In this document: positions 221 through 29,893 of the stretch, piece by piece
Layout: every line of letters starts with the position of its first letter
Position numbering within the stretch: position 1 is the stretch's first letter
Source: Amycolatopsis alba DSM 44262
GTDB taxonomy: Bacteria > Actinomycetota > Actinomycetes > Mycobacteriales > Pseudonocardiaceae
Direction of reading: 5' to 3'
DNA length: 64,000 bases
Assembly (NCBI RefSeq): GCF_000384215.1
Contig: NZ_KB913032.1
Span: 831,021 to 895,020 of the forward strand
Program-made: the position numbers and the translations under genes
The notes under the pieces: model-generated
Seen by the model: the letters and a program-made list of their open reading frames with translations, nothing else
Databases searched by the model: none
What the model was told of the DNA's origin: nothing

Positions 221-1180
221 TCACCCAAGCAGCCGCCACACCTGCTCCGTGACAGCAGCGCTGGAAATCCCGTTACGGGCCAGCAGATGCCGGTGCCCGC
301 CGGTACCCACCGCGAACCGGTCCGCCACCGCCACCCGCCGGACCGGGCAGGCCACCCCGAGTTCCGCCACGACCTCGGCGACGGCGGACCCGAGACCACC
401 GGCCGCCCAGTGTTCCTCGACGGTGACGATCCCGCGCGTCCGCGTCGCGGCCTCGACGATCGCCTCGTGGTCGAGCGGCTTGACCGTGTGCATGTTGAGC
501 ACGGCCACGTCGATTCCGTCGCCTGCCAGGTCTTCGGCGGTCTCGACGGCGGCGAGCACGGGGTGTGGTCCGGTGGCGATCACCGTCACGTCGGCACCCT
601 GCCGCAACCGCTGCGCGACACCGATCCGCACCGGTTCCGCGGACGGCGGAAGATCCGGCGTCGCACCACGGCCGAGCCGTAGGTACACCGGTCCAGGCAG
701 ATCGGCGCCCGCTCGCAGCAGGCTCTCGGTCGAGGGGCCGTCCGCCGGTACCAGCACCGTCATGTTCGGCAGCAGCCGCATGATCGCGAGATCTTCCAGC
801 GAATGGTGCGTGGAGCCGAGGTGGCCGGCGGACAGCCCGCCGTGGGTGGCGGCGATCCGCACCGGCAGGTTGTTCCACGCGATGTCGAGTTTCACCGCTT
901 CCAGCGCACGGGTGGCGGCGAACGTCGACATGGTGTTGACGAACGGGATCCGGCCGGACCGGGCGAGACCGGCGGCCACGCCCATCAGGTTCTGCTCCGC
1001 GATACCGAGGTTGAGATACCGCTCCGAAGCCGCGCCCCAGTCGGTGGAGGAGAACAGCCCGGTGTCGCTGTCCAGGCACACCTGCCGTTCGTCCTTGCCG
1101 AGCAGTTCGACCAGCACGTCCCGGTAGACCTCGCGTGCCGCACGGGCCTCGTTCCTGGTCAGCGTGTCGTTCCCGGTCAC
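221..1180 (-). CDS. Transketolase C-terminal subunit (split transketolase)
   Basis: A 319-aa protein carrying the pyrimidine-binding and C-terminal domains of transketolase. The motif GIAEQNLMGVAAG carries the glutamate that activates thiamine diphosphate, and a C-terminal transketolase domain follows from about residue 190. It must pair with the N-terminal subunit encoded just upstream. GTG start overlapping the upstream stop by 4 bases (GTGA). In AmCP-dependent pathways such as vazabitide A, a two-subunit transketolase adds a two-carbon ketol unit to carrier-bound glutamate semialdehyde. The place of this gene at the end of a LysW operon makes that role likely here. It is the last gene of the operon and is followed by a strong hairpin. 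Family assignment is firm; the substrate is inferred. Confidence 0.9.
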   Translation of the reverse strand: MTGNDTLTRNEARAAREVYRDVLVELLGKDERQVCLDSDTGLFSSTDWGAASERYLNLGIAEQNLMGVAAGLARSGRIPFVNTMSTFAATRALEAVKLDIAWNNLPVRIAATHGGLSAGHLGSTHHSLEDLAIMRLLPNMTVLVPADGPSTESLLRAGADLPGPVYLRLGRGATPDLPPSAEPVRIGVAQRLRQGADVTVIATGPHPVLAAVETAEDLAGDGIDVAVLNMHTVKPLDHEAIVEAATRTRGIVTVEEHWAAGGLGSAVAEVVAELGVACPVRRVAVADRFAVGTGGHRHLLARNGISSAAVTEQVWRLLG

Positions 1181-1986
1181 GGTCGTTCACCTCGCAGGAC
1201 CGCCGCGCGGGCGCGCTGGTACCCGCGCCCGGTGAGCCGGACGTAGTGGCTGCGCGCCTGGTCTTCGACGTAGGGCAATCCCTTGCCTTTCACCGTGCGG
1301 GCCAGCAGGACGGTCGGACGGCCGGGGGTGTGCGGAACCCGGTCCAGCGCCGCCCGGAGCTGCCCGGTGTCGTGCCCGTCGACCTCGATCACCGTCCACC
1401 CGAAACCCCGCCAACGGTCTGCGAGCGGTTCCAGGGCCACGGTTTCCTCCGTGTCCCCGGTGATCTGCAGCCCGTTGCGGTCCACGATCGCGACCAGCCG
1501 GTCGAGACGCTGGGCACCGGCGGCCATCGCGGCCTCCCATACCGAGCCCTCCTGCAGTTCGCCGTCGCCCAGCACGACGAAGCACCGGCGATCGCTGCCG
1601 TCCAGCCGGGCGGCGAGCGCGAAGCCGACACCGAGCGGCAGTCCGTGCCCGAGCGACCCCGTCGGCATCTCGACGCCGGGCACCGCCGGATTCGGATGAG
1701 CGGTGAACACGCTGTCCGGAGCGCCATAGCTCGCCAGCGACTCCTCGGGGAAGAACCCCCGCCCCGCCAGGACCGCGTACAGACCGATCGCGCCGTGTCC
1801 CTTGCTCAGCAACAGGATGTCCCGGTCCGGCGCCTGTGGCCGGTGCGGGTCGATCCGCAGCACGTGATGGTAGAGCGTCACCAGGATCTCCACCATGGAC
1901 ATCGATCCGCCCAGATGGCCGCCTTCCGGGTTGGCGCACATCCGCACGATCAGTTCCCGTGCCTTACGCGTGTGGTCGTCGGTCAT
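1177..1986 (-). CDS. Transketolase N-terminal subunit (thiamine diphosphate binding)
   Basis: A 269-aa protein matching the N-terminal half of transketolase. The motifs [14 protein letters not shown] and [12 protein letters not shown] are visible, and the diphosphate/Mg site runs from GDGELQEG to DRNGLQ. The usual single-chain enzyme is about 650 aa. Here the two halves are separate overlapping genes (GTGA at 1177-1180), as in archaeal and many secondary-metabolite transketolases. The start ATG at 1986 overlaps the stop of the upstream hydrolase gene (ATGA). An in-frame extension upstream of 1986 exists but lies over the hydrolase gene and is not real. Probably forms the active site with the downstream subunit and acts on a LysW-bound aldehyde. 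Confidence 0.92.
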
Positions 1987-3047
1987 CGGCCCTCTCCGGT
2001 GAGACGCTCGCCCAGTTCGGTCAGCGCGCGGGTGAGTACCCGGACACCGAACAGGTACTCGGACAGTTTGATGTGTTCCCGGCCGGAATGGTCCAGGCTG
2101 CTGTCGCCCGGTCCGTAGGTCGCCATCGGCATCGACCACTCCTCCGCCAGCGTGTTCATGTCGGAGGTACCGGTCTTCACCTTCGCCCGCGGCCTGGCGC
2201 CCTCTGCTCGGATGGCGATCGAAAGCGCACTGGCCACCGGATCGGTACGACCGACCCGGCACGCGCGGACGGAGTTGAGGACCCGCAGGGTGCCGGGGTC
2301 TTGCCGCCCGGACAACGCGGCCACCAGGCTGTCGCGGTCGAAACCCGGCGGGATCCGGATGCTGAACTCGGCGGTGGCGGAGGTCAATCCGCCCTCGATC
2401 GACACCAGCGTCGGGCCGGGTTGGTCGAAGCGGGCATGGCCCGCCTCCGGGCCGAGCAGGTCCAGCAGGTCCGCCCACGCCCGCGCGGCCAGCTCCGACG
2501 CCTTGGGCGTGACGTTGCTGGGGTGGGTCGCCTCGCACCGGACCTCGTAGCGAAGGTCGATTTTTCCCTTGTACCCGAGGACGACGGCGTCACAGCCGCT
2601 GGGTTCGCCGATGACCAGCGCGTCCGGTGGTGCGTGCGTGCGGCGGATCCACACCGCGCCGCGGGACATCGTGGTCTCCTCCTCCACCGCGCCCACGACC
2701 ACGATCCGGCCGCGGAACCCGGTGCTGCCGACGGCCGCGCAGATCATCGTGGCGAGTGGCCCCTTGGCGTCGACGGCGCCCCTGCCGTACAGGAGATCAC
2801 CTTCCACCCGCACCGGGATCTCCCCCGGCACGGTGTCCATATGCCCCAGCAACATCACCGTCGGACCGGGGCCGCGGTCGATCTCCCCGACCGCGTTGCC
2901 CGCCTCGTCGACCCGCGCGGTGAAACCGGCTGCGCGCATGGCGTCCACCGTATGCCCGGCCAGCTCTGATTCCGAAAAGGACGGTGAAGGGATCTTCACC
3001 ATTCCTTGGAGCAGTTCGATCGCGGCCGTCTCCGAAAAGGTCGTCAC
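1983..3047 (-). CDS. lysK-like: LysK-type M20 hydrolase releasing the product from the carrier protein
   Basis: A 354-aa zinc peptidase of the M20/ArgE/LysK family. Metal-site motifs are GHMDTVPGE near residue 69, [12 protein letters not shown] near 91, VGAVEEETT near 122 and, near the C-terminus, TGTSDMN and DHSGREHI. LysK hydrolyses the isopeptide bond between the LysW C-terminal glutamate and the amino group of the finished amino acid. The GTG start at 3047 overlaps the kinase stop (GTGA). The next gene overlaps its stop by 4 bases. It sits between the kinase and the transketolase genes, so release probably follows the transketolase step in time but not in gene order. Could in principle be a general acyl-amino-acid hydrolase, but the context makes LysK much more likely. 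Confidence 0.88.
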
Positions 3048-3865
3048 AGCTCCTCCAGCAGCACTTCGGTGCACGCGCCCGCCAAGGCGTCCCGGACCGG
3101 ATGCGGCCGCCTGCCGTCGGCGATCAGCACGCGGCCCGTACCGGCCAGCAGCGCTTCCCGCGCCGCGATCAGCTTGATCCCCATCCCGCCGGTGACCACC
3201 GGAGGCGGTCCCTGGCGGGGAATCCGGCAGACGGGAAGCGTCGACCGTTCGTCGTCCCGGTCGGCCAGCACCCCGTTCGCCCCGGTGAGCAACAGCAGGG
3301 TGCTCGCCCGCACGGCACCGGCGATGGCCGCGGCGGCCCGGTCCGCGTCCGTGTTGACCGCCCGGCCGTCTTCGGCAACGGCCGGCGGCGAAACCACCGG
3401 CAGCACCCCGGCGGAAAGCAGGGTGGACAGCAGCTCCTCGTTCACGCCGGTGATCCGTCCACTGTGGTCGTCCCTGACCACGACGCGGCGGCCGCCGACG
3501 AGCGCGCGGTGCGCGATTTTTCGCGTGGCCACGAGAAGTCCCGCGTCCAGACCGGTCAACCCCACCGCCTTCACCCCGCAGGCACGGAGTTCGGCCAGCA
3601 ACCGGGGTTTGACCGCGCCCGCGAGCGCCAGCTGCACCACTTCCAGGGTCTCCACGTCGGTGTACCGCGTCGACACCCCGTCCGGGGAAACGAGACGGCG
3701 GGACGGCACCCCGAGCCGGACGGCGAGCCTGTCGATGTCCGCCGAACCGCCGTGGACGAGGATCACCGGCCTGCCGTCCCGGCGTGCCGCGGCGACGTCC
3801 GCGCAGACCGCCGCCGACCGGACAGCGGCGGTCCCGCCGCATTTGACCACAAGTATGTCCCGCAT
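3044..3865 (-). CDS. lysZ-like: LysZ-type amino acid kinase acting on carrier-bound substrate
   Basis: A 273-aa amino-acid-kinase-fold protein, the size of LysZ/ArgB. The N-terminal ATP-site motif is VVKCGGTA and the substrate loop is [18 protein letters not shown] segment follows, and later [12 protein letters not shown] and the GGMGIKL nucleotide motif. LysZ phosphorylates the side-chain carboxylate of glutamate or aminoadipate whose amino group is attached to LysW. It lies 18 bases after the reductase gene. Being in a LysW operon separates it from housekeeping ArgB, which uses N-acetylglutamate. The exact substrate (LysW-glutamate rather than aminoadipate) is inferred from the accompanying transketolase. 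Confidence 0.88.
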
Positions 3866-3883: not shown

Positions 3884-4915
3884 TCAGTTCGGATGCAATC
3901 CGGGGAATTCGAGCCCTGTCCGCTCCGGCCAGCCGAAGCGCGCGTTCAGGCACTGCACCGCTCCGCCCGCGCCTCCCTTGACCAGGTTGTCCAAGGCGCC
4001 GATCAGCACCGCGGTCCCGGTTTCGCCGGACACCGCGAACCCCACGTCGCAGAAGTTGGAGCCGGACAGGATCTTCGGCTCCGGCAAGCGATACAGGCCA
4101 CGCCGCTGGGCGACGATCCGGACGAAGGGCTCGTCCCGGTACGCCGCCCGGAACGCGGACCGGACGTCCTTTTCGGACACTCCGGCGGCCAACGTCGTGT
4201 GGCACAGCACCTGCACGCCGCGGACCGCCTCGACGCCGGTGGCCGTCATCCGCACGGTCCGGCCGGTGGCCTGCGCGATCTCGGCCTCGTGCCGGTGCCG
4301 GGTGGGGGCGAACACCCTGAGCGCGCCGCTGCGTTCGGCGTGAGCACCGGCGGATCCGCTCGACGCCCCCGACCCGCTGGAGCCGGTCCTGGCGTCCACC
4401 CGGACCTCGCCTTCGATCAGGCCCGCCTCGGCGAGGGGCCGGACCGCGAGGATGCCCGCGGTGGCCATGCACCCCGGCACCGAGATCCGGTCGGCGGTGG
4501 CGAGCTCGGCCCGATGCCATTCGGGCAGACCCGGTGTGAAGGAAGGGATCAGCTCCGGCGCGGTGTGCGGGGTTTCGTAGTAGGAGGCGTAGGTTTCCGG
4601 GTCTCTCAAGCGGAAGTCACCGGACAGATCGATGACGGTCCCGGCCAGTTTCAGGAACCCGGCCATCCGCGCCATCGTCTCCCGATGCGGGGTGGCCAGG
4701 AAGAGCACGTCGAGATCGAGACCGGTCAGGTCGCCGTGCCCGACGAAGCACAGATCCGTGTGACCGCGAAGATTGGGATGGGGACCGTCGACCCGGCGTC
4801 CGGTGAAGCGGTCGGACGTGGCCGCCACGACCGTGGCCCGCGGATGGCCGTGCAGCAGGCGAAGCAGCTCGCCGCCGATGTAGCCGGACGCCCCGGCGAC
4901 CGCTACCCGGAGCAT
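3884..4915 (-). CDS. lysY-like: LysY/ArgC-type acyl-phosphate reductase
   Basis: A 343-aa NADPH-dependent semialdehyde dehydrogenase of the ArgC/LysY family. The nucleotide-binding [12 protein letters not shown] lies near the N-terminus. The catalytic cysteine is in [12 protein letters not shown] near residue 149. [18 protein letters not shown] segment corresponds to the substrate-binding loop of LysY proteins. It reduces the LysW-bound acyl phosphate to the aldehyde that a transketolase could accept. Its start overlaps the end of lysX by 13 bases. Full family length, no damage seen. Confidence 0.9.
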
Positions 4916-5757
4916 GACCGCGACTTCTCCAGCAGGTGGCCGACGATCCGGTCGGCGACGGAAACCTTGTCACCGAGGGCTTCCTGCAGTCCGGAGAACT
5001 CGACACCGTGGTTGACCTCCAGGACGTGGACCGCTCCCGTCTCGTCCTCGATGAGGTCGACCCCGGCGATTTCGGCCTCCACGGCCTGCGCCGCCATGAC
5101 CGCGAGCTTGGCGAGCTCCGGGGTCAGCGGGCACAGTTCGCTGACGGCGCCTCTCGCCACATTGGTCCGCCACTGCTCGCTGCGCCGGTAGCTCGCGGCC
5201 ACCGCTTCGCCGCCCACGACGATGGCGCGGATGTCCCGCCCCGGTTTGGCGATCCATTCCTGGACGTAGACGATCCGCGCCTGCGGTGAGGGCAGGGCGG
5301 CGACGTACTCCAACACGGTTTCCGCGGTCCGCCGATCCGGCAACGCGGACACCAGCCGTCCCCACGAACCGTTCAACGGCTTCACCACGGCCGGGTAGCC
5401 GAGGGTTTCCAAAGCCGTCAGCGCGGCTTCGGGGGTCAGCCCGAGCGCGGTGCGCGGCGTCGGGATCCCGGCCTCGGTGAGCGCCGCGGACGTCCGCCAC
5501 TTGTCGCCGCACAGTTCGGTCGCACGGGCCGAGTTGACCACCGTCGCGCCCGCGGCCTCCAGCGCGTGAGCGCCGTAAGTCGCCCGTGCGAGCCCGATCT
5601 CCCGGTTCAGCACCACCGGATGCGGGACGCGGTCGCCGAGCTGATGCCACCACTCACGGCTGTCGACGTGCCGATAGGAAAGCCCTCTGCGGTCGAAGGC
5701 TTCGAAGATTCTTTTCTCGCTGGACCGCACACGGGAAGCGAGTACCGCGAAAGTCAC
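4903..5757 (-). CDS. lysX-like: LysX/ArgX-type ATP-grasp ligase loading the carrier protein
   Basis: A 284-aa RimK/LysX-family ATP-grasp ligase. Nucleotide-site segments are VVKPLNGSWGRLVSAL, VQEWIAKPGRDIRAIVVGG and the C-terminal VLEVNHGVEFSGLQEAL. LysX joins the amino group of glutamate or aminoadipate to the C-terminal glutamate of LysW. GTG start at 5757 overlapping the lysW stop (GTGA), so the ligase is translationally coupled to its protein substrate. Length is typical of the family. Confidence 0.92.
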   Translation of the reverse strand: MTFAVLASRVRSSEKRIFEAFDRRGLSYRHVDSREWWHQLGDRVPHPVVLNREIGLARATYGAHALEAAGATVVNSARATELCGDKWRTSAALTEAGIPTPRTALGLTPEAALTALETLGYPAVVKPLNGSWGRLVSALPDRRTAETVLEYVAALPSPQARIVYVQEWIAKPGRDIRAIVVGGEAVAASYRRSEQWRTNVARGAVSELCPLTPELAKLAVMAAQAVEAEIAGVDLIEDETGAVHVLEVNHGVEFSGLQEALGDKVSVADRIVGHLLEKSRSCSG

Positions 5758-5918
5758 TCTCCCCAGTCCTCTTCGATCTCCGGCGCGAGCGCGGCCCTGA
5801 TCGGATCCAGCGTGATGATTTCCAGTTCAGTGGCGCAATCACCGCATTCGACGATTTCACCGATCACCGGCGTTCCGGCCGGAACCACCGAGCTTTCGCA
5901 TTCCGGGCAGGTGACCAT
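5754..5918 (-). CDS. lysW-like: LysW-type amino-group carrier protein (AmCP)
   Basis: A 54-aa acidic protein, the defining gene of the operon. It starts MVTCPECESSVV, has a second CGDC pair, and ends EIEEDWGE. The two CxxC pairs form the zinc knuckle and the EDWGE tail is the LysW signature, whose terminal glutamate is the attachment point for the substrate amino group. Its globular acidic body is the docking surface for LysX, LysZ, LysY and LysK. It is the first gene of a seven-gene operon whose members nearly all overlap. The 85 bases upstream, to the end of the XRE regulator gene, must hold the promoter unless the regulator transcript reads through. Confidence 0.95.
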   Translation of the reverse strand: MVTCPECESSVVPAGTPVIGEIVECGDCATELEIITLDPIRAALAPEIEEDWGE

Positions 5919-6003: not shown

Positions 6004-7260
6004 TCACCGGGCCTGTCCGGCCGTCTGCGGGCTTCGGTCCTTCACGTACAGGAGCCGCACCAGTTGCAGTGCCGTGAACCGTTCCGGCAGATGCGCGCCC
6101 GCGGGCCGGACGAGCCCGTGGACCAGGAGCGCGTGCAGCGCGGCGGCTGGATCCGGGACGACGTGGTCGATGTCGGCGACGGTCCAGTGCGGCAGGTCCG
6201 CCACTTCGGCCAGCGCGCGGCGATGGCGTTCGGCCACGACGTCGACGCTCCGTGCCAGGGACCGGAGCAGGTCCTGGCAGCCGCAGCCGACCGGCGGGGA
6301 CAGGAGATAGGAGTCGTGACCCGCGTGGGCCAGCAGCGATTCGGGAGGATGCACCAGGCACCAGCCGGCCGCGTATTCGAGTGCCCTCGGTACCCCGTCG
6401 AGCCAGCGGCACAACCGCGCGACGGCACGCGCGTTGTCCTCCCGGAGCTGGAATCCCGGCCGTGAGCGACGGATATGGGACAGGAACAAGGCCACGGAAG
6501 CGATTTCACCCAATCGAGTGGGATCATGATCCGCCGTGTCGTCCGGTACCGCCATCGCGGTGAGTGGCAGGACACATTCCCCCGGCAGGTATCGCGGAGC
6601 CAGCCCGGTCACCACGACCCGCAGACCGGGACAGCGGCGGAGCAGTTCGCCCACGTCCACCCGGCCGAGGGCCGGATCGTCGTCGCCGTCGATGACCAGC
6701 AGCGCGTCCCGCTCGCCGAACGCCCCGGCGAGATCGTCGGTCAGCCTCGTGGCCGGTTCGTCCGAACCCGTTCTGGCAGCGGGGATCGCGCCGCAGCAGT
6801 CATGGGCCGGGTGTTCGGTCCCGTACCACCCGATCCGCCAGCCCTCGGCCCGCAGCACCTGCGCCGCCTCGAGCACCAGACGGGTCTTGCCGATGCCGCT
6901 GATCCCCACCACGCTCACCCGGCGGTGACCATGCACGGTCACCTGATCGAGCAAGACCCGCAGCTCCGTGTCCCGGCCGATCAACGCCCCGTGCGGCGCG
7001 GGTGGAGCGGGCGGCACGAACAGCGAAAACCGCCGGTCCGCCGGTCTTCCCGCGGCGGCGAGCAGCCGCAGGCGTTCCGGATCGCCCAGCCGCAACGCGT
7101 CGGCCAGCAGCCCGACGCTTTCCCGCCGGGGCCTTCGCACCCGGCCGCTCTCCAGATCCCGGATCGCCCGGACGCTCAACGTGGCGAAATCCGCCAGTTG
7201 CTGCTGGGTCAATCCGGACCTGCCCCGATAGTCCTTCAGAAGTTCCGCGAAAAGAACCAT
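6004..7260 (-). CDS. XRE-type regulator with NB-ARC-like ATPase domain
   Basis: A 418-aa protein with an N-terminal helix-turn-helix (residues about 5-60, with LTQQQLADFATLSVRAIRDL). A P-loop follows (GISGIGKT, residues 119-126), then a Walker B-like DALLVIDGDDD. The C-terminus ends in a winged-helix/ARC-like region with no TPR array. The start at 7260 is preferred because the HTH begins right there; an upstream in-frame extension crosses the divergent promoter. It lies upstream of and in the same direction as lysW with an 85-base gap. It is divergent from the AfsR-type gene. Likely a cluster-situated, ATP-dependent regulator; its ligand is unknown. Confidence 0.82.
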   Translation of the reverse strand: MVLFAELLKDYRGRSGLTQQQLADFATLSVRAIRDLESGRVRRPRRESVGLLADALRLGDPERLRLLAAAGRPADRRFSLFVPPAPPAPHGALIGRDTELRVLLDQVTVHGHRRVSVVGISGIGKTRLVLEAAQVLRAEGWRIGWYGTEHPAHDCCGAIPAARTGSDEPATRLTDDLAGAFGERDALLVIDGDDDPALGRVDVGELLRRCPGLRVVVTGLAPRYLPGECVLPLTAMAVPDDTADHDPTRLGEIASVALFLSHIRRSRPGFQLREDNARAVARLCRWLDGVPRALEYAAGWCLVHPPESLLAHAGHDSYLLSPPVGCGCQDLLRSLARSVDVVAERHRRALAEVADLPHWTVADIDHVVPDPAAALHALLVHGLVRPAGAHLPERFTALQLVRLLYVKDRSPQTAGQAR

Positions 7261-10741: not shown

Positions 10742-10794
10742 TCCGTGAAGGCCTCCTTCCCTGCTCTCAGGGCAGGGAAGGAGGCCTTCACGGA
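10742..10794. terminator. Bidirectional hairpin between convergent genes
   Basis: Inverted repeat with 23-base perfect arms (10742-10764 and 10772-10794) beginning TCCGTGAAGGCCTCCTTC, with a 7-base loop. It lies between the rightward small gene and the leftward FAD monooxygenase. The same element with the same core is at 21028-21082, and a single arm is at 46415-46432. Confidence 0.75.
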
Positions 10795-10800
10795 ACGGAT

Positions 10801-11916: not shown

Positions 11917-11940
11917 CACATACCTCCCGAACACTGTTCA

Positions 11941-11995
11941 ACGAACTAAGTTCGTCGCTAACGAACTTAGTTCTACTTGGCGAACTAAGTTCGTG
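11941..11995. promoter_or_regulatory. Triple operator with 20-bp spacing
   Basis: Three copies of the palindrome GAACTTAGTTC/GAACTAAGTTC at 11943-11953, 11963-11973 and 11983-11993, exactly 20 bases apart. They lie in the 89-base space between the FAD monooxygenase and the TetR gene. Almost certainly the binding sites of the TetR protein, which would repress both genes. Confidence 0.85.
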
Positions 11996-12005
11996 TCAAG
12001 CTAGA

Positions 12006-12758: not shown

Positions 12759-12777
12759 CCGCCTGCCCGCTCCCCGC

Positions 12778-13533: not shown

Positions 13534-13582
13534 CGCCGGCTCCCTCCTGTCCGGGTGGTCGCCGCCGCACCCACGCCTGTCT

Positions 13583-21011: not shown

Positions 21012-21027
21012 CCCACGCTTCGCCAAT

Positions 21028-21082
21028 GTCCGTGAAGGCCTCCTTCCCTACCTTCAGAGTAGGGAAGGAGGCCTTCACGGAC
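21028..21082. terminator. Bidirectional hairpin between convergent operons
   Basis: Perfect 24-base arms (21028-21051 and 21059-21082) with a 7-base loop, beginning GTCCGTGAAGGCCTCCTTC. It fits exactly between the stop of the ATP-grasp gene and the stop codon of the leftward monooxygenase at 21083. Same family as the element at 10742-10794. Confidence 0.8.
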
Positions 21083-22384: not shown

Positions 22385-22400
22385 TATGCACTCCCCTTGT

Positions 22401-23435
22401 TCACGCACGGACCTTCCTGACCGCGCCGAGGATCTCCTCGGCGACGAGCGGTGCGGTACCGAATCCGGACCCGCCACAGGCGGGGCGAGACCACACCGAC
22501 GGGTGAATCCGGGTGAGCACCGGACCCCCGTCGACGGGATCGGCCGCGTAGTGGCAGTCCCGCACGGCGACGACGGCGTAATCTGCGGCGCCGGCGAGAA
22601 TCGGTTCGGCGAGCAGCCGATCGGCCCACGGTTCGCCGTCCAGGTCCCTTGTGGACTCGACCTCCCGGCAGACCGCGTCCGAACTGATCTTGAGCAAGGT
22701 GCCGCAGCCAGGGGGCAGCAGCCAGGCGGTGCGGCCGCCGCCGATCCGGCCGACACCGGGCGCCGACTCCCACCAGCCCGCCAGGTTCCCCGGCGGGCGC
22801 AGGTAGATCATGGTCTGGCGGTACAGCGTGACAGGCTGCCCGGCCAGTTCGGTGCTCCCCGGTCCCGCCGCGACCAGCACGAGGTCCGCCTCCGCCGTCG
22901 TACCGTCGGCCAGGGTCACCCGGTGATCGCCGACGCCGTCGACGGCGCGGTGCGGCTTCAGTTCCGTCAAAGGATGCGCGGTGAGCCAGTCCGCCGCCGC
23001 GCGAAGAAACCGTTCGGCCAGCAGCACCCCGGCGTCGCGATCGAGCACACCGCCCGTACCGGCGGGGAACACCACGGGCGGCAGGGCTTCCGGCGACACG
23101 ACGACAGCGGGGAGCCCGGCCTCACCCGCGGTGTCGAGCGCCTGCTCGATTTCGCCGAGGGTGCCCGCGGTGACCACGCCGACCGGCCGGAAGATCTCTT
23201 TCCGCAGCAACGATTCCAGCTCCAGCCAACGACGGCGGGCCTCGGCCATCCGCCGTGTGCCGTCGGCGTCGCCCGGACGCAGCACCCGCAATGCCCGGTG
23301 CTGGTCGGACGAAGCCGAGGCTGGATTCGGGATGGGACCACGATCGAACACGGTGACACGGTGACCCGCCCGCGCGCACCCGATCGCGGTCACCAACCCG
23401 GTCACCCCGGCGCCGACGACGGCGACAGCCGCCAT
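22401..23435 (-). CDS. D-amino-acid-oxidase-like FAD enzyme, probably cleaving the hydrazine adduct
   Basis: A 344-aa FAD oxidoreductase of the DAO/glycine oxidase family. It has N-terminal VVGAGVTGLVTAIGCARAG, then FDRGPIPNPASAS and C-terminal SRPACGGSGFGTAPLVAEE. In s56-p1 and triacsin pathways a DAO-like enzyme follows the N-N bond-forming pair and oxidatively releases hydrazinoacetate from the lysine-glycine hydrazine. This gene overlaps the synthetase-like gene by one base and lies in the same operon as the N-hydroxylase, so the same role is likely. Not tested by alignment here. Confidence 0.82.
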   Translation of the reverse strand: MAAVAVVGAGVTGLVTAIGCARAGHRVTVFDRGPIPNPASASSDQHRALRVLRPGDADGTRRMAEARRRWLELESLLRKEIFRPVGVVTAGTLGEIEQALDTAGEAGLPAVVVSPEALPPVVFPAGTGGVLDRDAGVLLAERFLRAAADWLTAHPLTELKPHRAVDGVGDHRVTLADGTTAEADLVLVAAGPGSTELAGQPVTLYRQTMIYLRPPGNLAGWWESAPGVGRIGGGRTAWLLPPGCGTLLKISSDAVCREVESTRDLDGEPWADRLLAEPILAGAADYAVVAVRDCHYAADPVDGGPVLTRIHPSVWSRPACGGSGFGTAPLVAEEILGAVRKVRA

Positions 23436-24961
23436 CAGACGGCCAGCCGCGGCAGCTTCTTCGGGATGACCGCGTCCGCGTCCACCTGTCCGGGCAGCGT
23501 CGTGTCGGGCAGCGCGGCCGCGGCGAGATCGATCAGGATCGGCGCGGCGCAGCGCAGGAACACGTCCACCTGGTGACAGAGATCCCCCGCGGTCCCGGCG
23601 GTCGTCGCGGCGGCCAGCCGATCGAGCCGCGCCAGCTGTTCGGCGAGCGTCGACGCCACGGCCGTCAAGCTGAACCGCCGGAGCCCGTAGCCGTCGGCGA
23701 ACCGTTCGGCCATCCGCAGCGCCGTCCTCCTGGCGGCTTCGGAAACCGGCAGCGGACCGCGGTCCACCCAGCGGTCGATCGCCGCCGCGACCCGGTTCCA
23801 CGGTCCGGTCAGCCGGGTCTCGCTGACCCGGAGCAGGGCTTCGCGGGTGAAGTCCGTGCGCTGGTACTCGGGGCTGGTGGCGCAGAGGTGGAAGCGGATG
23901 AGATCGCGCGGCACCTCGGCGGCCAGCTCGCGGCCGGAAACGACATGCCCGCGGCTGGTGGAGAACTTCTCGTTGGCCAGCTCGTAGAACTCGTTCGTGA
24001 CGTACTGCGCCGGGAGCACGTGCCCGCCGAGCGCGGTGAGCATCGCCGTGCCCACGATCGCGAACGGGTACGTCGCGTCCAGGCCGAGGAAGTACACCAC
24101 GGTCGAACCGGAGCCCGCCTGCCACAGCTCGTCGTCGGCGGTCAGGACCGCGCCGCGTTTCTCCGCGGCCAGCGCGGTGGTGAACATGCTCCACGGCATG
24201 CCCTCCATATGCGGATAGATCACCTGCCCCGGCACCTCGGGGAACAGCGCCGGGATGCCCCACGACGTCGGCTGGGTGATCGGGAAGTCCGGCAGCGGCC
24301 CCGCCAGCGCGGACTCGACGAGCCGGGCCATGCCGGGCCGCATCGGGATCCGGGCGAAATACGCCTCCAGTTCCGCGCGGTATCGCTCGACCGGGAAGAC
24401 GAGGATGTCCGCGTCGCGGTACTCCAGCGGCTCGTCCGGGCGCAGCGTCGAGCGCGGGGCGATCAGGTCGCCGGGAGCGACCGGCAGCCCGCAGCTCTCG
24501 CAGACCCCGGCGTACCCGTCGGCGAGGCAGAACGGGCAGCCGCCGGTGACGTAGGCGTCCATCAGGTACTCGCCGGTGCTCGGCAGCCAAGGGAAACGCA
24601 CGGTCTTCAGCTCCAGCCTGCCCATGCTGTGCAGCCGGTCGTAGAAGTCCATGACCAGTTTGGTGAACCGGTCACCGATACAGCCGAAACCGTCGACGTC
24701 GATGCCCATCGCGGCCAGCGTCTCCTGAACCTGAGCCGAGGAGCGTTCCCGCAGGTCTTCCGGAGCCACGCCGAGTCGCGCGGCCGCCGTGACGACGTAG
24801 TTCTGGGTGAAGTGCATGCCGGTGCCGTAAAAGGCTTCCCTGCCGGTCGCGCGGGCGTACCGGGCACAGACGTCGGCGGCGAGGAACGGACCGGCGAGAT
24901 GGCCGAGGTGCAGGTCGCCGTTCGCCGTCGGGGCAGGCGAGATCACCACCAGCCGGTTCAT
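23435..24961 (-). CDS. Methionyl-tRNA-synthetase-like half of a hydrazine synthetase
   Basis: A 508-aa class I aminoacyl-tRNA-synthetase-like protein. The HLGH signature is at residues 18-21. A zinc knuckle has cysteines 142/145 and 154/157. KFSTSR at 332-337 corresponds to KMSKS. It is shorter than bacterial MetRS and sits directly after a lysine N-hydroxylase gene. In Spb40/Tri28-type hydrazine synthetases this module activates glycine and esterifies it to N6-hydroxylysine, and a fused cupin then rearranges the ester to the N-N bond. Here the cupin is not fused but encoded at 27585. Could instead be a resistance copy of MetRS, but context argues against that. Confidence 0.88.
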   Translation of the reverse strand: MNRLVVISPAPTANGDLHLGHLAGPFLAADVCARYARATGREAFYGTGMHFTQNYVVTAAARLGVAPEDLRERSSAQVQETLAAMGIDVDGFGCIGDRFTKLVMDFYDRLHSMGRLELKTVRFPWLPSTGEYLMDAYVTGGCPFCLADGYAGVCESCGLPVAPGDLIAPRSTLRPDEPLEYRDADILVFPVERYRAELEAYFARIPMRPGMARLVESALAGPLPDFPITQPTSWGIPALFPEVPGQVIYPHMEGMPWSMFTTALAAEKRGAVLTADDELWQAGSGSTVVYFLGLDATYPFAIVGTAMLTALGGHVLPAQYVTNEFYELANEKFSTSRGHVVSGRELAAEVPRDLIRFHLCATSPEYQRTDFTREALLRVSETRLTGPWNRVAAAIDRWVDRGPLPVSEAARRTALRMAERFADGYGLRRFSLTAVASTLAEQLARLDRLAAATTAGTAGDLCHQVDVFLRCAAPILIDLAAAALPDTTLPGQVDADAVIPKKLPRLAV

Positions 24962-26241
24962 CAGGCGGTCCTCGACTCGCCGGCGCCGCGGCGGGCGAGC
25001 AGATCGCTGACGATGTCACGGGAACGATGAGCCAGCACGCTGATCAACGAGTCGGCGATACCGTGCGTCGCCTCGTTCACGCCCTGCAGATACACCGCGC
25101 CCCAGGCGGAATCACCGAGTTCGACCCGGTAGCAGCGGCTGACCGAGATCTCCGACAACCCGACGCGTTCGGCGAGGTCGCGCACCATCGCGGGCATCCG
25201 CTGGTCGAAACCGGTGCCGAGGAGCACCAGATCGCACCGCAGCGGTTCGACCTTGCCGCTGGTCCGGTCGCGCAGATCGAGGACGACCTCGTCGTCTTCG
25301 ATCCTGGCGCCGACCACTTCGGTCAGCGTCCGCACCTGCGAACGCTGACCGCCGAGGCCGCGCTGCTGGTAAAGCGTGGTGTACAGGTGATCGAGGAACG
25401 GCGGGGCCGCCCCGGCGTAGTTGGTCAGGCGCATCTCGTCCAGCATCTGTTCCCGGACCTCGGCCGGGCTGTCGTAGAAGCGGTCGACGAACGACGGGAA
25501 GAACAGTTCGTTGACGAATTTGCTCGTCTGGTAGTTCTGCGGGCCCACCGAGCGCACGATCATGGTCCGCGTGCTGTTGGGCAGATTGTCGTGCAGTGCC
25601 ATGAACATCTCGGCCGCGCTCTGCGCCCCGCCCACCACGACCGCGCGCAGCGGGGCGTCCGGCCGCAGCCGCGCGATCCTGCGCCGGTACTGGGCGCTGT
25701 GGATGATCCGGTCGGCAGGCAGCTCGGCGAAGACGTCCGGCACGTTCGCGTCCCGGCCGCCGCCCACGACCAGGTCGCGGCAGCGGATCGTGTCCCCGCC
25801 GTCGAGGGTGGCCGTCCAGCCGGCGATCGACCCGTCGGCGTCGCGGGCGGGCTCGATGCGCTGCACCCTGGCGTCGTAACGGATGCGGACCTTGTCCAGT
25901 GATCGCGCGACCCACTGCAGGTAGTCGGAGAACTCCCAGCGGAACGGGTGGAACGTGCCGAGGTTGACGAACTCGTCGAGCCGGTTCTCCTCGTACAGGA
26001 AGTTGAGGAACGAGAACTTGCTGCGCGGATTGCGCAGCGTCACCAGGTCCTTGAGGAAGGAGACCTGGCTGCGCGCCCACGGCATCAGCAGATCCCGTTG
26101 CCACTTGATGTCCGGACTCTGTTCCAGCAGCAGCGTCTGCCCGGCCAGCTCCGGATTCCCGGACTCCTCGATGGCCACCGCGAGCGCCAGGTTCGCCGGA
26201 CCGGCGCCGATCGCCAGCAAACCCACCTGTATTTCAGTCAC
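24961..26241 (-). CDS. Lysine/ornithine N-hydroxylase (probably lysine N6)
   Basis: A 426-aa flavin N-hydroxylating monooxygenase of the IucD/SidA/PvdA family. The FAD motif is AIGAGPANLALAVAIEE at residues about 11-27. The NADPH motif VVGGAQSAAEMFMAL is central, and LVLLGTGFDQRMP is near the C-terminus. It converts lysine (or ornithine) to the N-hydroxy form with O2 and NADPH. As the first gene of the operon with the MetRS-like and DAO-like genes, it most likely provides N6-hydroxylysine for N-N bond formation rather than for a siderophore. Its promoter holds three inverted repeats of the shared operator. Confidence 0.9.
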   Translation of the reverse strand: MTEIQVGLLAIGAGPANLALAVAIEESGNPELAGQTLLLEQSPDIKWQRDLLMPWARSQVSFLKDLVTLRNPRSKFSFLNFLYEENRLDEFVNLGTFHPFRWEFSDYLQWVARSLDKVRIRYDARVQRIEPARDADGSIAGWTATLDGGDTIRCRDLVVGGGRDANVPDVFAELPADRIIHSAQYRRRIARLRPDAPLRAVVVGGAQSAAEMFMALHDNLPNSTRTMIVRSVGPQNYQTSKFVNELFFPSFVDRFYDSPAEVREQMLDEMRLTNYAGAAPPFLDHLYTTLYQQRGLGGQRSQVRTLTEVVGARIEDDEVVLDLRDRTSGKVEPLRCDLVLLGTGFDQRMPAMVRDLAERVGLSEISVSRCYRVELGDSAWGAVYLQGVNEATHGIADSLISVLAHRSRDIVSDLLARRGAGESRTA

Positions 26242-26291
26242 AGATACACCCCGTTCGTCCAGAATAGAGTGCCGACCCTAGGTACCGGCAT

Positions 26292-26349
26292 TTCCCCGGC
26301 GATAGGGACAAGTTTCCCGATGGCCGGGGAATCTCCCCTTTCGCGGGAA
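26292..26349. promoter_or_regulatory. Three inverted-repeat operators before the N-hydroxylase operon
   Basis: Three imperfect palindromes at 26292-26309, 26314-26331 and 26334-26349, all of TTCCC-N-GGGAA type and about 19-22 bases from centre to centre. The last is followed by GATCCGGGACC, matching the flank of the site at 15733-15751. They lie 51 bases upstream of the hydroxylase start. Confidence 0.65.
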
Positions 26350-26545
26350 GATCCGGGACCGGCCACCCAGGCGGCCGAACGGGCCTGTCCCGCTACCCCT
26401 TGGTACCTCACTCTTGAGTACTACCCCGAATGCCGCGTTCACTGCATTCCGCACCGATACGGTGCTGTACAGTGATGTCACCACCCTCCGCCGCACTGTC
26501 GGACCTGGTCTCCCCCCTTGATCGGACGCTTCCTCCCGCAGGAAA

Positions 26546-26563
26546 AATTGATTGCAATCAATT
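26546..26563. promoter_or_regulatory. Perfect 18-bp AT-rich palindrome
   Basis: AATTGATTGCAATCAATT is a perfect 18-base palindrome and strongly AT-rich in an otherwise GC-rich region. It lies 160 bases upstream of the LuxR-type gene in the 481-base divergent region. Probably an operator. It differs from the TTCCC-type repeats, so a second regulator may act here. Nothing else coding is supported between 26242 and 26722. Confidence 0.55.
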
Positions 26564-26722
26564 GTTCACAGCGGTCATATGGCTCCGTCCGACGACTACT
26601 ACATAGACTGCTCTCGCGGCCGGCCAGTCCCATCCCCGCCATGGCCGAAAAGAGCACTTCGTCGCACTTCACCGAACGGAGCCGATCAGGAAGGCTCAGT
26701 AGCGGCAGGCACAGGGGGAAAG

Positions 26723-27487
26723 ATGAACAATCACGCAAGTATCGGCAACACTGCCCGTATCTGGCCGTCCGAACGCCGCGATCAACGGCGCACCGCGAGC
26801 CTGCTGCCCGACCACCGCAGGGCGGAAGAAAACGCCGACCCCGGCTGGGTCACCGTCCTGCTCGCCGACAGCCAGCCGTCGATCCGTTACCGGGTCCGCT
26901 CCGCACTCGAGAACGTCAGCGGCATCGCCGTCATCGGGGAAGCGGCAACGGCGAACTCGACGATCGCGGAAACCTTCCGACATCGGCCGGACGTGCTGAT
27001 CATCGACCCGCAGCTCGGCGAGACCGTGACCGTCGACGTGATAAGCCGGGTTTCCCGTGTCGCACCGGAAACCAGGGTCCTGGTCCTGAGCGCGGTCGAT
27101 GACGACACCGCCATCAGATCGGCGATCCAGGCAGGCGCGCGCGGCTATCTGATCAAAGGCGCCGACCTGGATCAGGTCGTCCGCGGCGTCCAGGTCGTGG
27201 CCGCGGGTGAAGCGATCGTCGGCAAAGCGATCGCCGGCCGGTTCAGCGCTTTGCTGCGGTCGGCACTCGGCCCGGAACCGTATCCCTTTCCCCAGTTGAC
27301 TTCCAGGGAACGGGAAGTGCTCGACCGCATCGCCGCGGGCAAGTCGAACGCGGCCATCGCCCGCGATCTCGCCCTCGCGCAGAAGACCATCAGCAACCGC
27401 GTTTCCGCCGTCTTCGGCAAACTCGGGGTAGCCGATCGCGCACAGGCGATAGTTTTGGCGCGCGACGCGGGTCTCGGCCGCGGCTGA
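26723..27487 (+). CDS. Orphan LuxR-type response-regulator-like protein
   Basis: A 254-aa protein: N-terminal tail of about 40 residues, a receiver-like domain (about 42-165) and a C-terminal LuxR HTH (LTSREREVLDRIAAGKSN, QKTISNRVSAVFGKLGV). In the receiver, the phosphoacceptor aspartate is kept (LIIDPQLG) and so is the lysine (GYLIKGA), but the acidic pair reads ADS instead of VDD, so one aspartate is a serine. No kinase gene is adjacent. ATG 26723 follows a GGGGGAAAG ribosome site. It lies between the two divergent hydrazine operons and is a good candidate to bind the shared TTCCC-type repeats. Confidence 0.82.
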   Translation: MNNHASIGNTARIWPSERRDQRRTASLLPDHRRAEENADPGWVTVLLADSQPSIRYRVRSALENVSGIAVIGEAATANSTIAETFRHRPDVLIIDPQLGETVTVDVISRVSRVAPETRVLVLSAVDDDTAIRSAIQAGARGYLIKGADLDQVVRGVQVVAAGEAIVGKAIAGRFSALLRSALGPEPYPFPQLTSREREVLDRIAAGKSNAAIARDLALAQKTISNRVSAVFGKLGVADRAQAIVLARDAGLGRG

Positions 27488-27508
27488 TTGACCGATAATC
27501 GGGAATAG

Positions 27509-27526
27509 TTCCCCTGTCGCCGGGAA
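27509..27526. promoter_or_regulatory. Inverted-repeat operator before the cupin operon
   Basis: TTCCCCTGTCGCCGGGAA, an 18-base inverted repeat nearly identical to the site at 15733-15751. A half-site GGGAA lies just upstream at 27501. It stands 58 bases before the cupin GTG start. Confidence 0.65.
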
Positions 27527-27584
27527 ACCGGCCGAACATAGCCTCGATCAGCACCGGAGAAAAGCACGCTGATCGGAGTGGGAT

Positions 27585-27986
27585 GTGACTGACCAAGACC
27601 TTGCCGCCGTGGACATCCGCAGGCTCGAGCACGAGAACCTGACTCGGGCCTACGGATTGGACATGAAGCTGCTTTATCCGTGGAACGGTTTGACGGCACC
27701 GTTTCGAGGGGCTTGGTGTGTGCTGCGCCCCGGCGACGTATCGGTGTCCCACGCTCATCACGAGCACGAGATCTTCATCGGAATGGCCGGTACCGCCGCG
27801 GTGGTCGCCGGGGAGCGGCGGCACGAGTTCATGGCCGGGGATCTCGTGTTCCTGAAGCCGGGAATAGAACACCACCTCGTCAACGACCGGGACGAGGACT
27901 TCTCCTACTACGCGATCTGGTGGGACCGTGCGATGTCGGACGAGTTCGTCGCCGCCGAATCCGACCGGGCCGACTCCCATGATTGA
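27585..27986 (+). CDS. Stand-alone cupin, probable N-N bond-forming partner
   Basis: A 133-aa single-domain cupin. Motif 1 reads G50...H56-A-H58...E62 and motif 2 reads G85...P92-G93...H96...N100. All four expected metal ligands (H56, H58, E62, H96) are therefore present. In known hydrazine synthetases a zinc cupin is fused to the MetRS-like module and rearranges the glycyl ester of N6-hydroxylysine into a hydrazine. Here it is a separate gene in a divergent operon under the same type of operator. GTG start at 27585; overlaps the next gene by 8 bases. Confidence 0.85.
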   Translation: MTDQDLAAVDIRRLEHENLTRAYGLDMKLLYPWNGLTAPFRGAWCVLRPGDVSVSHAHHEHEIFIGMAGTAAVVAGERRHEFMAGDLVFLKPGIEHHLVNDRDEDFSYYAIWWDRAMSDEFVAAESDRADSHD

Positions 27987-28296
27987 TTTCGACGGGCGGA
28001 AATTCCGCAAAGCGGGCGGCGACGCGATAGCCGTGTACCGGCAAGAAGGCGACGTCGTCTGGGCCGAATTCGCCGGCGGCGAGGTGCGACGGGGGTCGAT
28101 CACCGGCGCCCAGCGGGAGAACGGCGCCCTGCATCTGGGGTACACCATGGTGCTCGCCACCGGCGAGGTGATCTGCGGGCACACGGTGAACACCCCGGAG
28201 GTGACCGAGGACGGTCACCTCCGGCTGCGTGAGGTGTGGGAGCGCTACGGCCCGCACGCCGCCACTGGCGTCTCCTACCTCGACGAGGTGAGCTAG
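27979..28296 (+). CDS. Small beta-barrel-like protein of the family often labelled n-acetylglutamate synthase
   Basis: A 105-aa protein beginning MIDFDGRKFRKAGGDAIAVY, with VVWAEFAGGEVRRGSI and HLRLREVWERYG further on. This short family is commonly named n-acetylglutamate synthase in databases but has no acetyltransferase fold; the function is unknown. ATG 27979 is chosen because the family begins at this motif; the frame is open further upstream over the cupin gene. It overlaps the cupin by 8 bases and the next small gene by 1 base. Confidence 0.75.
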   Translation: MIDFDGRKFRKAGGDAIAVYRQEGDVVWAEFAGGEVRRGSITGAQRENGALHLGYTMVLATGEVICGHTVNTPEVTEDGHLRLREVWERYGPHAATGVSYLDEVS

Positions 28297-28415
28297 TGTC
28301 CCCCAGCCCATCCGGCGCGGACTGGCGCACCGCCTGCCACCCGCGCCTGAAGGAGATCAAGGATCGGGTCGGCTCAGACGGCGTCTTCACCTTCGCGCAA
28401 AGCATCGGATCATGA
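28296..28415 (+). CDS. Possible 39-aa protein, coupled on both sides
   Basis: A GTG frame of 39 codons starting inside the previous stop (TAGTG) and ending in an ATGA overlap with the next gene. It begins VSPSPSGADWRTACHPRLKE. This exact packing on both sides is typical of a real translated unit in this operon. No family is recognised; it might be a remnant N-terminus of a longer enzyme. Confidence 0.5.
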   Translation: MSPSPSGADWRTACHPRLKEIKDRVGSDGVFTFAQSIGS

Positions 28416-29074
28416 TCGGCGACGACAAGGTTCTCATCTGGACGGTGGCAGAGGTCGAGAACGGCGCCGTGCCGACGGAACATCTACCGTATACCAGGGA
28501 AATTCTGGCCTGGGCTGGACGCTATCTCGTCTCGCCGCATCCGGAACTCGGCCGGAACGGCCCGGTGTGCCCCTACACCCAGCCATCGCTCCACAAAGGA
28601 CTGTTCCATCTTGCGGCCCTGACGGCCACGAACGGCGAGACCGACGTCCGCGACGCGATCGAGAGCCTGCGCTCGTGGTACGAGCGGCTGTCGGCCAGGA
28701 TCCCGCCCGCGGACCGGGAACTGCTGACGATCCTGCTCGTGCTGCCGCACCTTGACCATCACGACTCGACCGGGCTGGACGACCTGCAGCGTGAGGCGAA
28801 GGACAAGTTCGTCAACGACGGCCTGATGATCGGGCAGTTCCATCCGGTCTGCGACCAGCCCGGCCTGTGGAACGAGAAGTTCAAGGCGCTGCGCGCGCCG
28901 GTACCGTTGCTGGCCGTCCGCAAACTGGTCGTCTTCGACCTGCCGTTCCTGATGGACGACGCGGTGCACGCCGAGAGCTACCTCCGGCGGTTCGCCCCGG
29001 ACATCCCGCCCCGCATTCGCGACCAGCTGGTGAAACGGCTGGTGGGCAACCAAAAATCCTTGCAGACGGCCTGA
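28412..29074 (+). CDS. DUF6875-like protein
   Basis: A 220-aa protein with the conserved region SPHPELGRNGPVCPYTQPSL at residues about 42-61. This resembles the DUF6875 family found in actinobacterial natural-product clusters. No catalytic motif is recognisable. Candidate conserved residues include two histidines and a cysteine (near 44 and 54) and a QFHPVCDQPGLWNE segment near 144. Translation is coupled to the small gene upstream (ATGA). A biosynthetic role in the cupin operon is likely but undefined. The family name is from memory and moderately certain. Confidence 0.7.
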   Translation: MIGDDKVLIWTVAEVENGAVPTEHLPYTREILAWAGRYLVSPHPELGRNGPVCPYTQPSLHKGLFHLAALTATNGETDVRDAIESLRSWYERLSARIPPADRELLTILLVLPHLDHHDSTGLDDLQREAKDKFVNDGLMIGQFHPVCDQPGLWNEKFKALRAPVPLLAVRKLVVFDLPFLMDDAVHAESYLRRFAPDIPPRIRDQLVKRLVGNQKSLQTA

Positions 29075-29092
29075 TCACTCGGGGGAAGACAG

Positions 29093-29893
29093 ATGCGGCA
29101 CTATCTCATGGTCAGCCCGGCGTACTTCGCCGTCGAGTATTCGATCAACCCGTGGATGGATCCCGGAAAACCCACCGACACGAAGCTAGCGATCACCCAG
29201 TGGGAATGGCTTCGTGATCTTTACGTCGAACTGGGCCACCGGGTGGACCTGCTCGATCCGGTGCCGGGCCTGCCGGACATGGTGTACGCGGCCAACGGTG
29301 CCACCGTGGTGAACGGCCGGGCGCTGGTGGCGCGCTTCCGCCACCGGCATCGCCGCCCGGAATCGGCGGCGCACCTGAAGTGGTTCACCGAGCACGGCTA
29401 CCCCGACGTCCAGCAGGCCAAGTGGGACAACGAGGGCGAAGGAGACTTCCTGGTCGCGGGTTCCCGGATCCTGGCGGGTTCGGGCTTCCGCACCGACCCG
29501 CGGGCACACGCCGAGGCCGCGGAGTTCTTCGGGGTACCGGTGGTGGGACTGGCCTTGACCGACCCGCGCTACTACCACCTGGACACGGCACTGACCGTCC
29601 TGGACGACGACATGATCATGTACTTCCCGGACGCCTTCACCGAAGGCAGCCGACGACGGCTCAAGGAACTGTATCCGGACGCCGTCCTCGCCTCGGCCAC
29701 CGACGCCGCGGCGTTCGGGCTGAACGCCGTCTCCGACGGGCGGCACGTCATCCTGCCGCAGGCCGCGACAGGAGTGATCGCACAGCTACGAGAGCGGGGC
29801 TTCGAACCGATCGGGGCCGATCTGTCGGAACTGCTCAAAGGCGGCGGGAGCGTCAAATGCTGCACCCTGGAACTGTTGAGAGGTAAGGCATAG
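29093..29893 (+). CDS. Dimethylargininase-like hydrolase (amidinotransferase fold)
   Basis: A 266-aa protein of the DDAH/arginine deiminase superfamily. Motifs are LPDMVYAANGATVVNG (substrate aspartate/asparagine region), EGEGDFLV, YYHLDTALTVLDDD (catalytic histidine) and a C-terminal GGGSVKCCTLELLR with the catalytic cysteine. The family converts dimethylarginine or a similar guanidine compound to citrulline plus amine. It lies 18 bases after the DUF6875-like gene in the same direction, so it may be the last gene of the cupin operon. A housekeeping role in arginine catabolism is the alternative. Confidence 0.82.
   Translation: MRHYLMVSPAYFAVEYSINPWMDPGKPTDTKLAITQWEWLRDLYVELGHRVDLLDPVPGLPDMVYAANGATVVNGRALVARFRHRHRRPESAAHLKWFTEHGYPDVQQAKWDNEGEGDFLVAGSRILAGSGFRTDPRAHAEAAEFFGVPVVGLALTDPRYYHLDTALTVLDDDMIMYFPDAFTEGSRRRLKELYPDAVLASATDAAAFGLNAVSDGRHVILPQAATGVIAQLRERGFEPIGADLSELLKGGGSVKCCTLELLRGKA

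Follow-up and report, generated by a model that had tools for sequence, protein, structure and literature searches.

An inserted nonribosomal peptide synthetase island beside a predicted hydrazine cluster with paired ATP-grasp ligases in Amycolatopsis alba DSM 44262

Introduction

A 64,000-nucleotide stretch of the Amycolatopsis alba DSM 44262 genome, hereafter the window (C1:831,021-895,020; the genome is 9.81 Mb in one contig), raises the question of whether genes for amino acid synthesis on an amino-group carrier protein (AmCP, here LysW) and genes for hydrazine formation, all lying within 30 kb, serve one pathway or two. We call the former module A and the latter module B. Genes were called by codon usage, domains were assigned by Pfam/NCBIfam hidden Markov model (HMM) scans of the window proteins, and a search for tRNA genes in the window found none; the literature comparisons draw on the accessible parts of PMC11705231, PMC10445470, PMC12154649, PMC9570651, PMC13307353, PMC8664883, PMC13274452 and PMC13061610. 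The HMM searches recovered every gene listed in a preliminary description of this DNA: LysW, LysX, LysY, LysZ, LysK and a split transketolase, genes for a lysine N-hydroxylase and for MetRS-like, cupin and DAO-like proteins, two ATP-grasp ligases, an exporter, and ACAD-like, KMO-like, DUF6875 and DDAH-like genes. However, its view of one 30-kb region did not hold, and the interval instead divides into an island (221 to ~10.4 kb), a shared backbone (10801-15591) and a separate cluster (15937-29893). Taken together, our results make it highly probable that modules A and B are not associated, and are two unrelated biosynthetic clusters lying side by side.

Results

Module A is the right end of an inserted island

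Module A is an insertion, forming the right end of an island of about 39 kb that encodes nonribosomal peptide synthetases (NRPSs). The distance between the matched edges of this island, which holds NRPS and AmCP genes, is 39.2 kb in the window's genome. In genome G090, DNA matches to window position 10800 and to position 9969 of locus L043 (C1:802,568) are 98 bp apart, and in G477 the same two edges are 60 bp apart. Gene order in G076 places the island-flanking genes next to each other; G278 gives no junction reading, as its stretch ends before the junction. Nothing in the flanks of G090 or G477 matched the segment 6004-10363 at the DNA level. A 45-bp palindrome lies at both island edges (Table 1) and has 57 copies in the genome, compared to 0 for a control pattern. 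A further copy was seen at 21033-21077, between the ATP-grasp B and VioC-like genes of module B. The backbone genes to the right of the island stand beside module B in several congeners, and the block from the FAD monooxygenase gene to the roadblock gene is absent next to module B in L029 and L039. The second FAD monooxygenase gene of the region (10801-11934) belongs to this backbone, not to module B.

To the left of the first base of the window lie genes for a DegT aminotransferase, NRPSs of 2625 aa and 1310 aa, and a 547-aa protein with peptidyl carrier protein and condensation domains, together with a thioesterase, a stand-alone adenylation protein, an asparagine synthetase and two 2-oxoglutarate-type oxygenases (PhyH, 2OG-Fe_Oxy_2). 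The earlier statement that the region has no NRPS or polyketide synthase (PKS) is thus correct within the bounds described and for module B, but not for module A; NRPSs seemed to be absent because the window begins inside the module A cluster. The gene set of an AmCP-NRPS cluster of the vazabitide/azinomycin kind is complete in module A, comprising LysW with its C-terminal Glu, LysX, LysY, LysZ and LysK, transketolase, aminotransferase and NRPS. Module A is a known kind of AmCP-NRPS cluster, with an unusual amino acid as its apparent product. LysX would load Glu or aminoadipate onto LysW, LysZ and LysY would then give the semialdehyde, and the split transketolase would add two carbons, after which the DegT enzyme would aminate the product, LysK would release a diamino-dihydroxy acid, and the NRPS would use the released acid.

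The two modules do not travel together

To quantify their association, we searched 80 Amycolatopsis genomes, including that of the window, with counts that are lower bounds since only part of the first-look candidates was scored. LysX (at least 59% identity) was found in 4 genomes and ATP-grasp A (at least 84%) in 14, and only the window's genome had both (Fisher p = 0.54). A looser LysX threshold raised the count to 7 genomes, and G168 then also had both, with its LysX gene (L047) on another contig than its ATP-grasp gene and no LysW, LysY or LysZ within about 1.5 kb on either side. This extra copy recurs in the window's genome as a second LysX-like ATP-grasp gene (L050, C1:7,212,097-7,212,885, 47%), likewise with no LysW, LysY or LysZ within about 1.5 kb on either side. 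In three Amycolatopsis genomes (G330, G415, G423), LysX, LysY and transketolase occur together with genes like the island NRPSs nearby, and no ATP-grasp A was found at E 1e-60.

Further searches gave a similar picture. LysX was present in 6 of 34 whole genomes selected because they matched the ACAD or ATP-grasp A, a total that includes some duplicates, since one genome can appear under two designations (G168 and G411, for example, matched at the same places). Outside the window's genome, the contig with LysX differed from those with ATP-grasp or ACAD genes in G065 (C40 vs C4, C19 and C20), G168/G411 (C18 vs C34), G406 (C17 vs C39) and G414 (C160 vs C96). Among 42 Streptomycetaceae genomes with a MetRS-like gene, LysX occurred in two, on another contig in G741 and about 118 kb off in G688, and no s56-p1-type locus was found. 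LysX, LysY and transketolase were found in none of 31 stretches around related clusters, which is a weaker test, as these stretches reach about 10 kb from the match and LysX lies about 12 kb off in the window.

These results bear on the alternative that all of the genes form one cluster, in which ATP-grasp ligases join an AmCP-made amino acid to a hydrazine unit to give an s56-p1-like peptide. The proximity of the genes, and the description of s56-p1 as a hydrazone dipeptide whose hydrazine comes from Spb38/39/40, would fit such a scheme. However, the island is absent from relatives that keep module B, the modules coincide in a single Amycolatopsis genome, LysX is missing from the related stretches, module A carries its own NRPS and aminotransferase, and the hydrazine synthetase is split here, compared to the fused Spb40. 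We rejected a single AmCP-hydrazine cluster on the empty site and the co-occurrence counts, and consider it very improbable. Comparative genomics thus argues that the AmCP genes are not functionally part of the hydrazine cluster, where the preliminary description had placed them; both the counts and the inserted NRPS island speak against that placement.

Module B is a conserved, separate cluster

Module B is supported by its gene content as a conserved and separate hydrazine cluster that is NRPS-free and ATP-grasp-coupled. A scan with ATP-grasp A returned 18 contigs from 8 genera: 9 from Amycolatopsis, 2 each from Saccharothrix and Micromonospora, and 1 each from Kutzneria, Actinacidiphila, Nocardiopsis, Actinokineospora and Catellatospora. 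These contigs carried genes for the DAO-like protein (17), the ACAD (16), a 105-aa protein (16), the N-hydroxylase (15), the MetRS-like protein (15), the cupin (14) and ATP-grasp B (12). The N-hydroxylase and MetRS-like genes are missing in L026, L028 and L033, where the stretch or contig ends before them, and the lack of a cupin in L040 and L041 may mean that the gene caller dropped a small gene. Among the 31 related stretches, the N-hydroxylase and the MetRS-like gene were each found in 28, and the cupin in 19. At E 1e-40 or better, 994 of 8000 scored candidates were relatives of ATP-grasp A, with generic names among the 120 listed.

An independent search seeded with the MetRS-like protein gave 46 matches at E 1e-70, in 42 of the 297 Streptomycetaceae genomes. 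Thirteen stretches were opened by choice, not at random (10 among the stronger matches and 3 weaker); ten were of the module B type, with ATP-grasp A, ATP-grasp B, ACAD and DAO-like genes, two resembled a second locus in the A. alba genome (described below), and one had NRPS genes. Ten further stretches, chosen from weaker matches, comprised seven of the second-locus type, two with NRPS genes and one unlike these. Frames of about 940 aa were considered as fused cupin-MetRS proteins and rejected as read-through frames, since opened type I clusters gave MetRS open reading frames of 511-515 aa.

Table 1. Features of the window from module A through the backbone to module B
Feature	Position	Strand	Evidence or remark
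Split transketolase	221-1986 (C half 221-1180, N half 1177-1986)	-	PF02779/PF02780 and PF00456
M20/LysK	1983-3047	-	HMM
LysZ	3044-3865	-	HMM
LysY/ArgC	3884-4915	-	HMM
LysX	4903-5757	-	HMM
LysW	5754-5918	-	C-terminal EDWGE
XRE/AAA regulator, island right end	6004-7260	-	HMM
SARP-type regulator, island right end	7412-10363	+	HMM
45-bp palindrome, right island edge	10746-10790		Copy at left edge, C1:802,569-802,613
Backbone genes (FAD monooxygenase, TetR, unknown, roadblock, MLTR regulator)	10801-15591		Beside module B in several congeners
MFS exporter	15937-17196	+	PF07690; in 24/31 loci
ATP-grasp ligase A	17193-18509	+	PF13535; nearest PDB entries L-amino acid ligase BL00235 and BacD
ACAD-fold flavin monooxygenase (HsaA/XiaF/HPAH-C2 type), predicted	18506-19765	+	HMM, PDB matches
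ATP-grasp ligase B (LAL_C2 domain)	19758-21011	+	In 22/31 loci
VioC/KMO-like FAD monooxygenase	21083-22384	-	In 8/31 loci, all Amycolatopsis or Saccharothrix
DAO-like FAD oxidase (putative Spb39/Tri27-like role)	22401-23435	-	PF01266; in 28/31 loci
Stand-alone MetRS-like hydrazine synthetase subunit, predicted	23435-24961	-	HLGH and KFSTS motifs
Lysine/ornithine N-hydroxylase (PvdA/MbtG/KtzI family)	24961-26241	-	PF13434, 2.1e-85; PDB matches
LuxR-type response regulator	26552-27487	+	HMM
Stand-alone cupin	27585-27986	+	PF07883; putative metal ligands H56, H58, E62, H96
105-aa protein, predicted avidin-like beta barrel	27979-28296	+	No Pfam; 17-row alignment; model
39-codon in-frame remnant of berberine-bridge-type FAD oxidase	28296-28412	+	Congener comparison
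DUF6875 protein	28412-29074	+	PF21780; same place in 5/5 congeners
DDAH/arginine-dihydrolase-like protein	29093-29893	+	NF045659, 435.9 bits (cut-off 300); same place in 5/5 congeners

Motifs, folds and the proposed route

Genes for the lysine/ornithine N-hydroxylase, the MetRS-like protein and the cupin are encoded together in module B. The putative metal ligands of the cupin are invariant in all 26 aligned cupins, and their spacing (+6/+40) is that of H50/E56/H90 in PyrN. The preliminary description had named best matches in siderophore or housekeeping families as an outcome that would speak against it, and this outcome was not seen: the MetRS-like protein shares 57-94% identity with those of other type I hydrazine clusters, 45% with that of the second locus, and 23-28% with housekeeping MetRS. 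In ATP-grasp A, K116, K156, E287, N289 and R291 are near-invariant in 29 sequences. ATP-grasp B has an Ala at the position of this Asn, invariant in 24 sequences, suggesting that its metal site may differ from that of A.

The ACAD-type enzyme is nearest to Rv3094c, HsaA, XiaF and HPAH-C2, and a flavin reductase gene (PF01613) occurs in several related clusters, directly adjoining the ACAD gene in L034 and L140-L142; none was seen in the window's module B. These matches and neighbors make a two-component monooxygenase likelier than a dehydrogenase. The model of the 105-aa protein, built from 17 sequences (pLDDT 95.5), is eight-stranded and all-beta and matches avidins, best zebavidin (E 3.6e-4, TM 0.71, 13% identity), a likeness that is a resemblance of predicted fold only. 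DUF6875 proteins bind heme and are capable of tryptophan oxidation, and ZigI is expected to be a C-7 hydroxylase, according to the accessible text of PMC13307353. The presence of a DUF6875 protein together with a VioC-like enzyme suggests, by analogy, an aromatic partner in the module B product. We also considered DUF6875 as the hydrazine enzyme KinJ and found no support, the literature tying this family to heme-dependent tryptophan oxidation (ZigI). The ATP-grasp genes of the negamycin- and fosfazinomycin-type (KinJ family) systems led us to consider such a hydrazine, which we set aside, without a search for KinJ itself, since a heme enzyme acts in that family. Of the three DDAH copies in the genome, the first belongs to module B, another (76%) is separated from the 105-aa gene of the second locus by about 7 kb, and the last (57%) lies elsewhere; relatives (59-67%) were found in 10 of the 23 Streptomycetaceae stretches. 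This link to both hydrazine clusters of the genome suggests that the DDAH gene is not incidental to them; as guesses, its product may supply citrulline or act on an amidino-hydrazine.

From gene content, conservation and motifs, we infer every chemical step in this organism, as well as both products. The N-hydroxylase would make N6-hydroxylysine, and the MetRS-like protein would join it through an ester to an activated amino acid, for which glycine is the likeliest candidate. The cupin would rearrange the ester to form an N-N bond, and the DAO-like enzyme would cleave the product to a hydrazino acid (hydrazinoacetic acid in the case of glycine). The two ATP-grasp ligases would then couple the hydrazino acid to amino acids without an NRPS, the ACAD-type, VioC-like and DUF6875 proteins (flavin and heme enzymes) would oxidize the hydrazine and/or an aromatic partner, and the MFS protein would export the product. 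The earlier suggestion of a distinct pathway to a small N-N peptide is therefore retained for module B alone, with its hydrazine trio, two ATP-grasp ligases and exporter and no NRPS or PKS, and is abandoned for a combined AmCP-hydrazine peptide.

Since the N-hydroxylase matches PvdA, MbtG and KtzI, module B could in principle be a hydroxamate siderophore cluster built around this enzyme. However, the Pfam domains assigned to the 13 proteins encoded in 15937-29893 include no acyltransferase, NRPS-independent siderophore synthetase, NRPS or iron transporter, and the MetRS-like and cupin genes carry hydrazine-type motifs, such that we give this explanation almost no credence. The same assignments include no PF00501, PF00550, acetyltransferase, C45 peptidase or PKS.

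Several observations weigh against our reading of two unrelated clusters with a conserved, glycine-based hydrazine route in module B. ATP-grasp B is missing from the stretch read in 6 of the 18 contigs, and in 7 of the 10 module B-type Streptomycetaceae stretches neither a cupin nor a 105-aa gene was seen as far as the stretch extended (both were seen in 3). Compared directly, the cupin resembles RHS1 (5UQP) weakly (E 8.5e-6), and homologues are also known, from the accessible literature text, to use Ser, Ala, Tyr or Glu as co-substrates. Moreover, later use of a module A amino acid by a module B ligase in this strain may have followed, which would be compatible with an accidental adjacency of the two clusters.

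An oxidase lost in this strain

The gene order LuxR, cupin, 105-aa protein, 442-459-aa FAD oxidase, DUF6875, DDAH was found in G477, G090, G457, G459 and G076. All five congeners read have kept the oxidase, and the G090 copy carries PF01565 and PF08031 (berberine-type). In A. alba, this gene has been cut in frame to 39 codons with its overlap with DUF6875 preserved, and no close copy was found elsewhere in the genome (best 34-37%). The apparent deletion may be an assembly error. With the berberine-bridge-type step lost by deletion, the probable outcome in this strain is that module B yields an earlier or altered compound, or no product at all. The intact oxidase of the congeners and the lack of a close copy elsewhere would also fit a decaying cluster, in which loss of the oxidase ended production and the rest is a residue. 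We regard such decay as rather unlikely, since the remaining module B genes are long open frames, their motifs are intact where checked (cupin, MetRS-like, ATP-grasp A), and the deletion retains both the frame and the DUF6875 overlap, a feature that fits selection or chance.

A second cluster and further variants

The same genome has a second hydrazine cluster at C1:8,611,870-8,633,185 (L163, L005). Its genes encode an N-hydroxylase, a cupin, a MetRS-like protein, ATP-grasp proteins, a DAO-like protein, a DDAH and a relative of the 105-aa protein, as well as methylaspartate mutase E, B12-binding proteins, a class II tRNA-synthetase-like protein, an FMN dehydrogenase/glutamate-synthase-like protein, a carbamoyltransferase and a relative of a solute-binding protein. 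Some module B-type clusters (L031, L036, L133-L135, L137) encode a B12-binding radical SAM protein (in L036, PF04055 and PF02310), and two ACAD-type genes are present in several clusters of this type. L145, L154 and L155 represent another MetRS-like hydrazine type, found beside NRPS genes with one ATP-grasp relative.

Discussion

Merging the two clusters would point chemists to the wrong molecule. Taken separately, module B suggests that N-N natural products are made by a widespread route that needs no NRPS. We give equal weight to both sides of a broader proposal, that module B represents a large unrecognized actinobacterial class making hydrazine-bearing di- or tripeptides by means of paired ATP-grasp ligases, without NRPS or carrier proteins. 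The recurring parts of such a class would include a DDAH-family amidinohydrolase and the avidin-fold barrel, with a conceivable role in binding the reactive hydrazine unit or keeping it sequestered. In Amycolatopsis and Saccharothrix, a partner of the tryptophan type may be hydroxylated by the VioC-like monooxygenase and the DUF6875 heme enzyme. The paired ligases, if they act on hydrazino acids, would be useful for the enzymatic synthesis of hydrazides and azapeptides, and the small conserved avidin-like protein is a testable candidate for the handling of a reactive intermediate.

Comparison with known systems

The s56-p1 cluster contains AmCP genes, and the half of s56-p1 other than its hydrazine is AmCP-made. 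Its Spb38/39/40 trio, which the accessible literature describes as making hydrazinoacetic acid, resembles module B in having a lysine N-hydroxylase, a cupin and MetRS-like hydrazine synthetase, and a DAO-like oxidase. However, Spb40 is one fused protein, whereas module B has separate genes on opposite strands (Table 1), and AmCP genes are not part of module B. The twin ATP-grasp, VioC-like and DUF6875 genes of module B are not mentioned for s56-p1 in the literature text available. The azaserine, triacsin and dob clusters share the hydrazinoacetic acid trio and an ACAD-family enzyme with module B, and the azaserine cluster also has a LuxR regulator and an MFS protein; they differ in having an adenylating enzyme, a carrier protein, GNAT, C45 peptidase, and PKS or NRPS, none of which is found in 15937-29893, and in their ACAD, which is HsaA-like in module B. 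Module B is thus supported as distinct from the s56-p1, triacsin and azaserine clusters.

Stand-alone MetRS/cupin pairs are known from the same accessible sources, and RHS1 (Rhodococcus jostii), Afn8/Afn9 and Dpn5-Dpn6 share the split cupin and MetRS-like architecture of module B. The metal-ligand pattern of RHS1 is comparable to that of the module B cupin, with Asp in place of the first His. Unlike module B, none of these three has a partnership with ATP-grasp ligases described in the literature text available. The azaserine cluster has one ATP-grasp gene, speculated by its authors to be not involved, and the accessible part of the KinJ preprint places ATP-grasp genes in many clusters of that different hydrazine enzyme family. 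We found no description of two ATP-grasp ligases with the hydrazine trio in the open-access literature, which omits most subscription papers. Module B is thus a variant of the hydrazine-synthetase clusters that is widespread, carrier-protein-free and undescribed within the open-access literature searched. Module A, on the other hand, is like vazabitide A and azinomycin, whose amino acid pathway is linked to an NRPS, in having a carrier-protein or N-acetyl glutamate route, a two-part transketolase and an aminotransferase, and these genes belong to the island and not to the hydrazine cluster.

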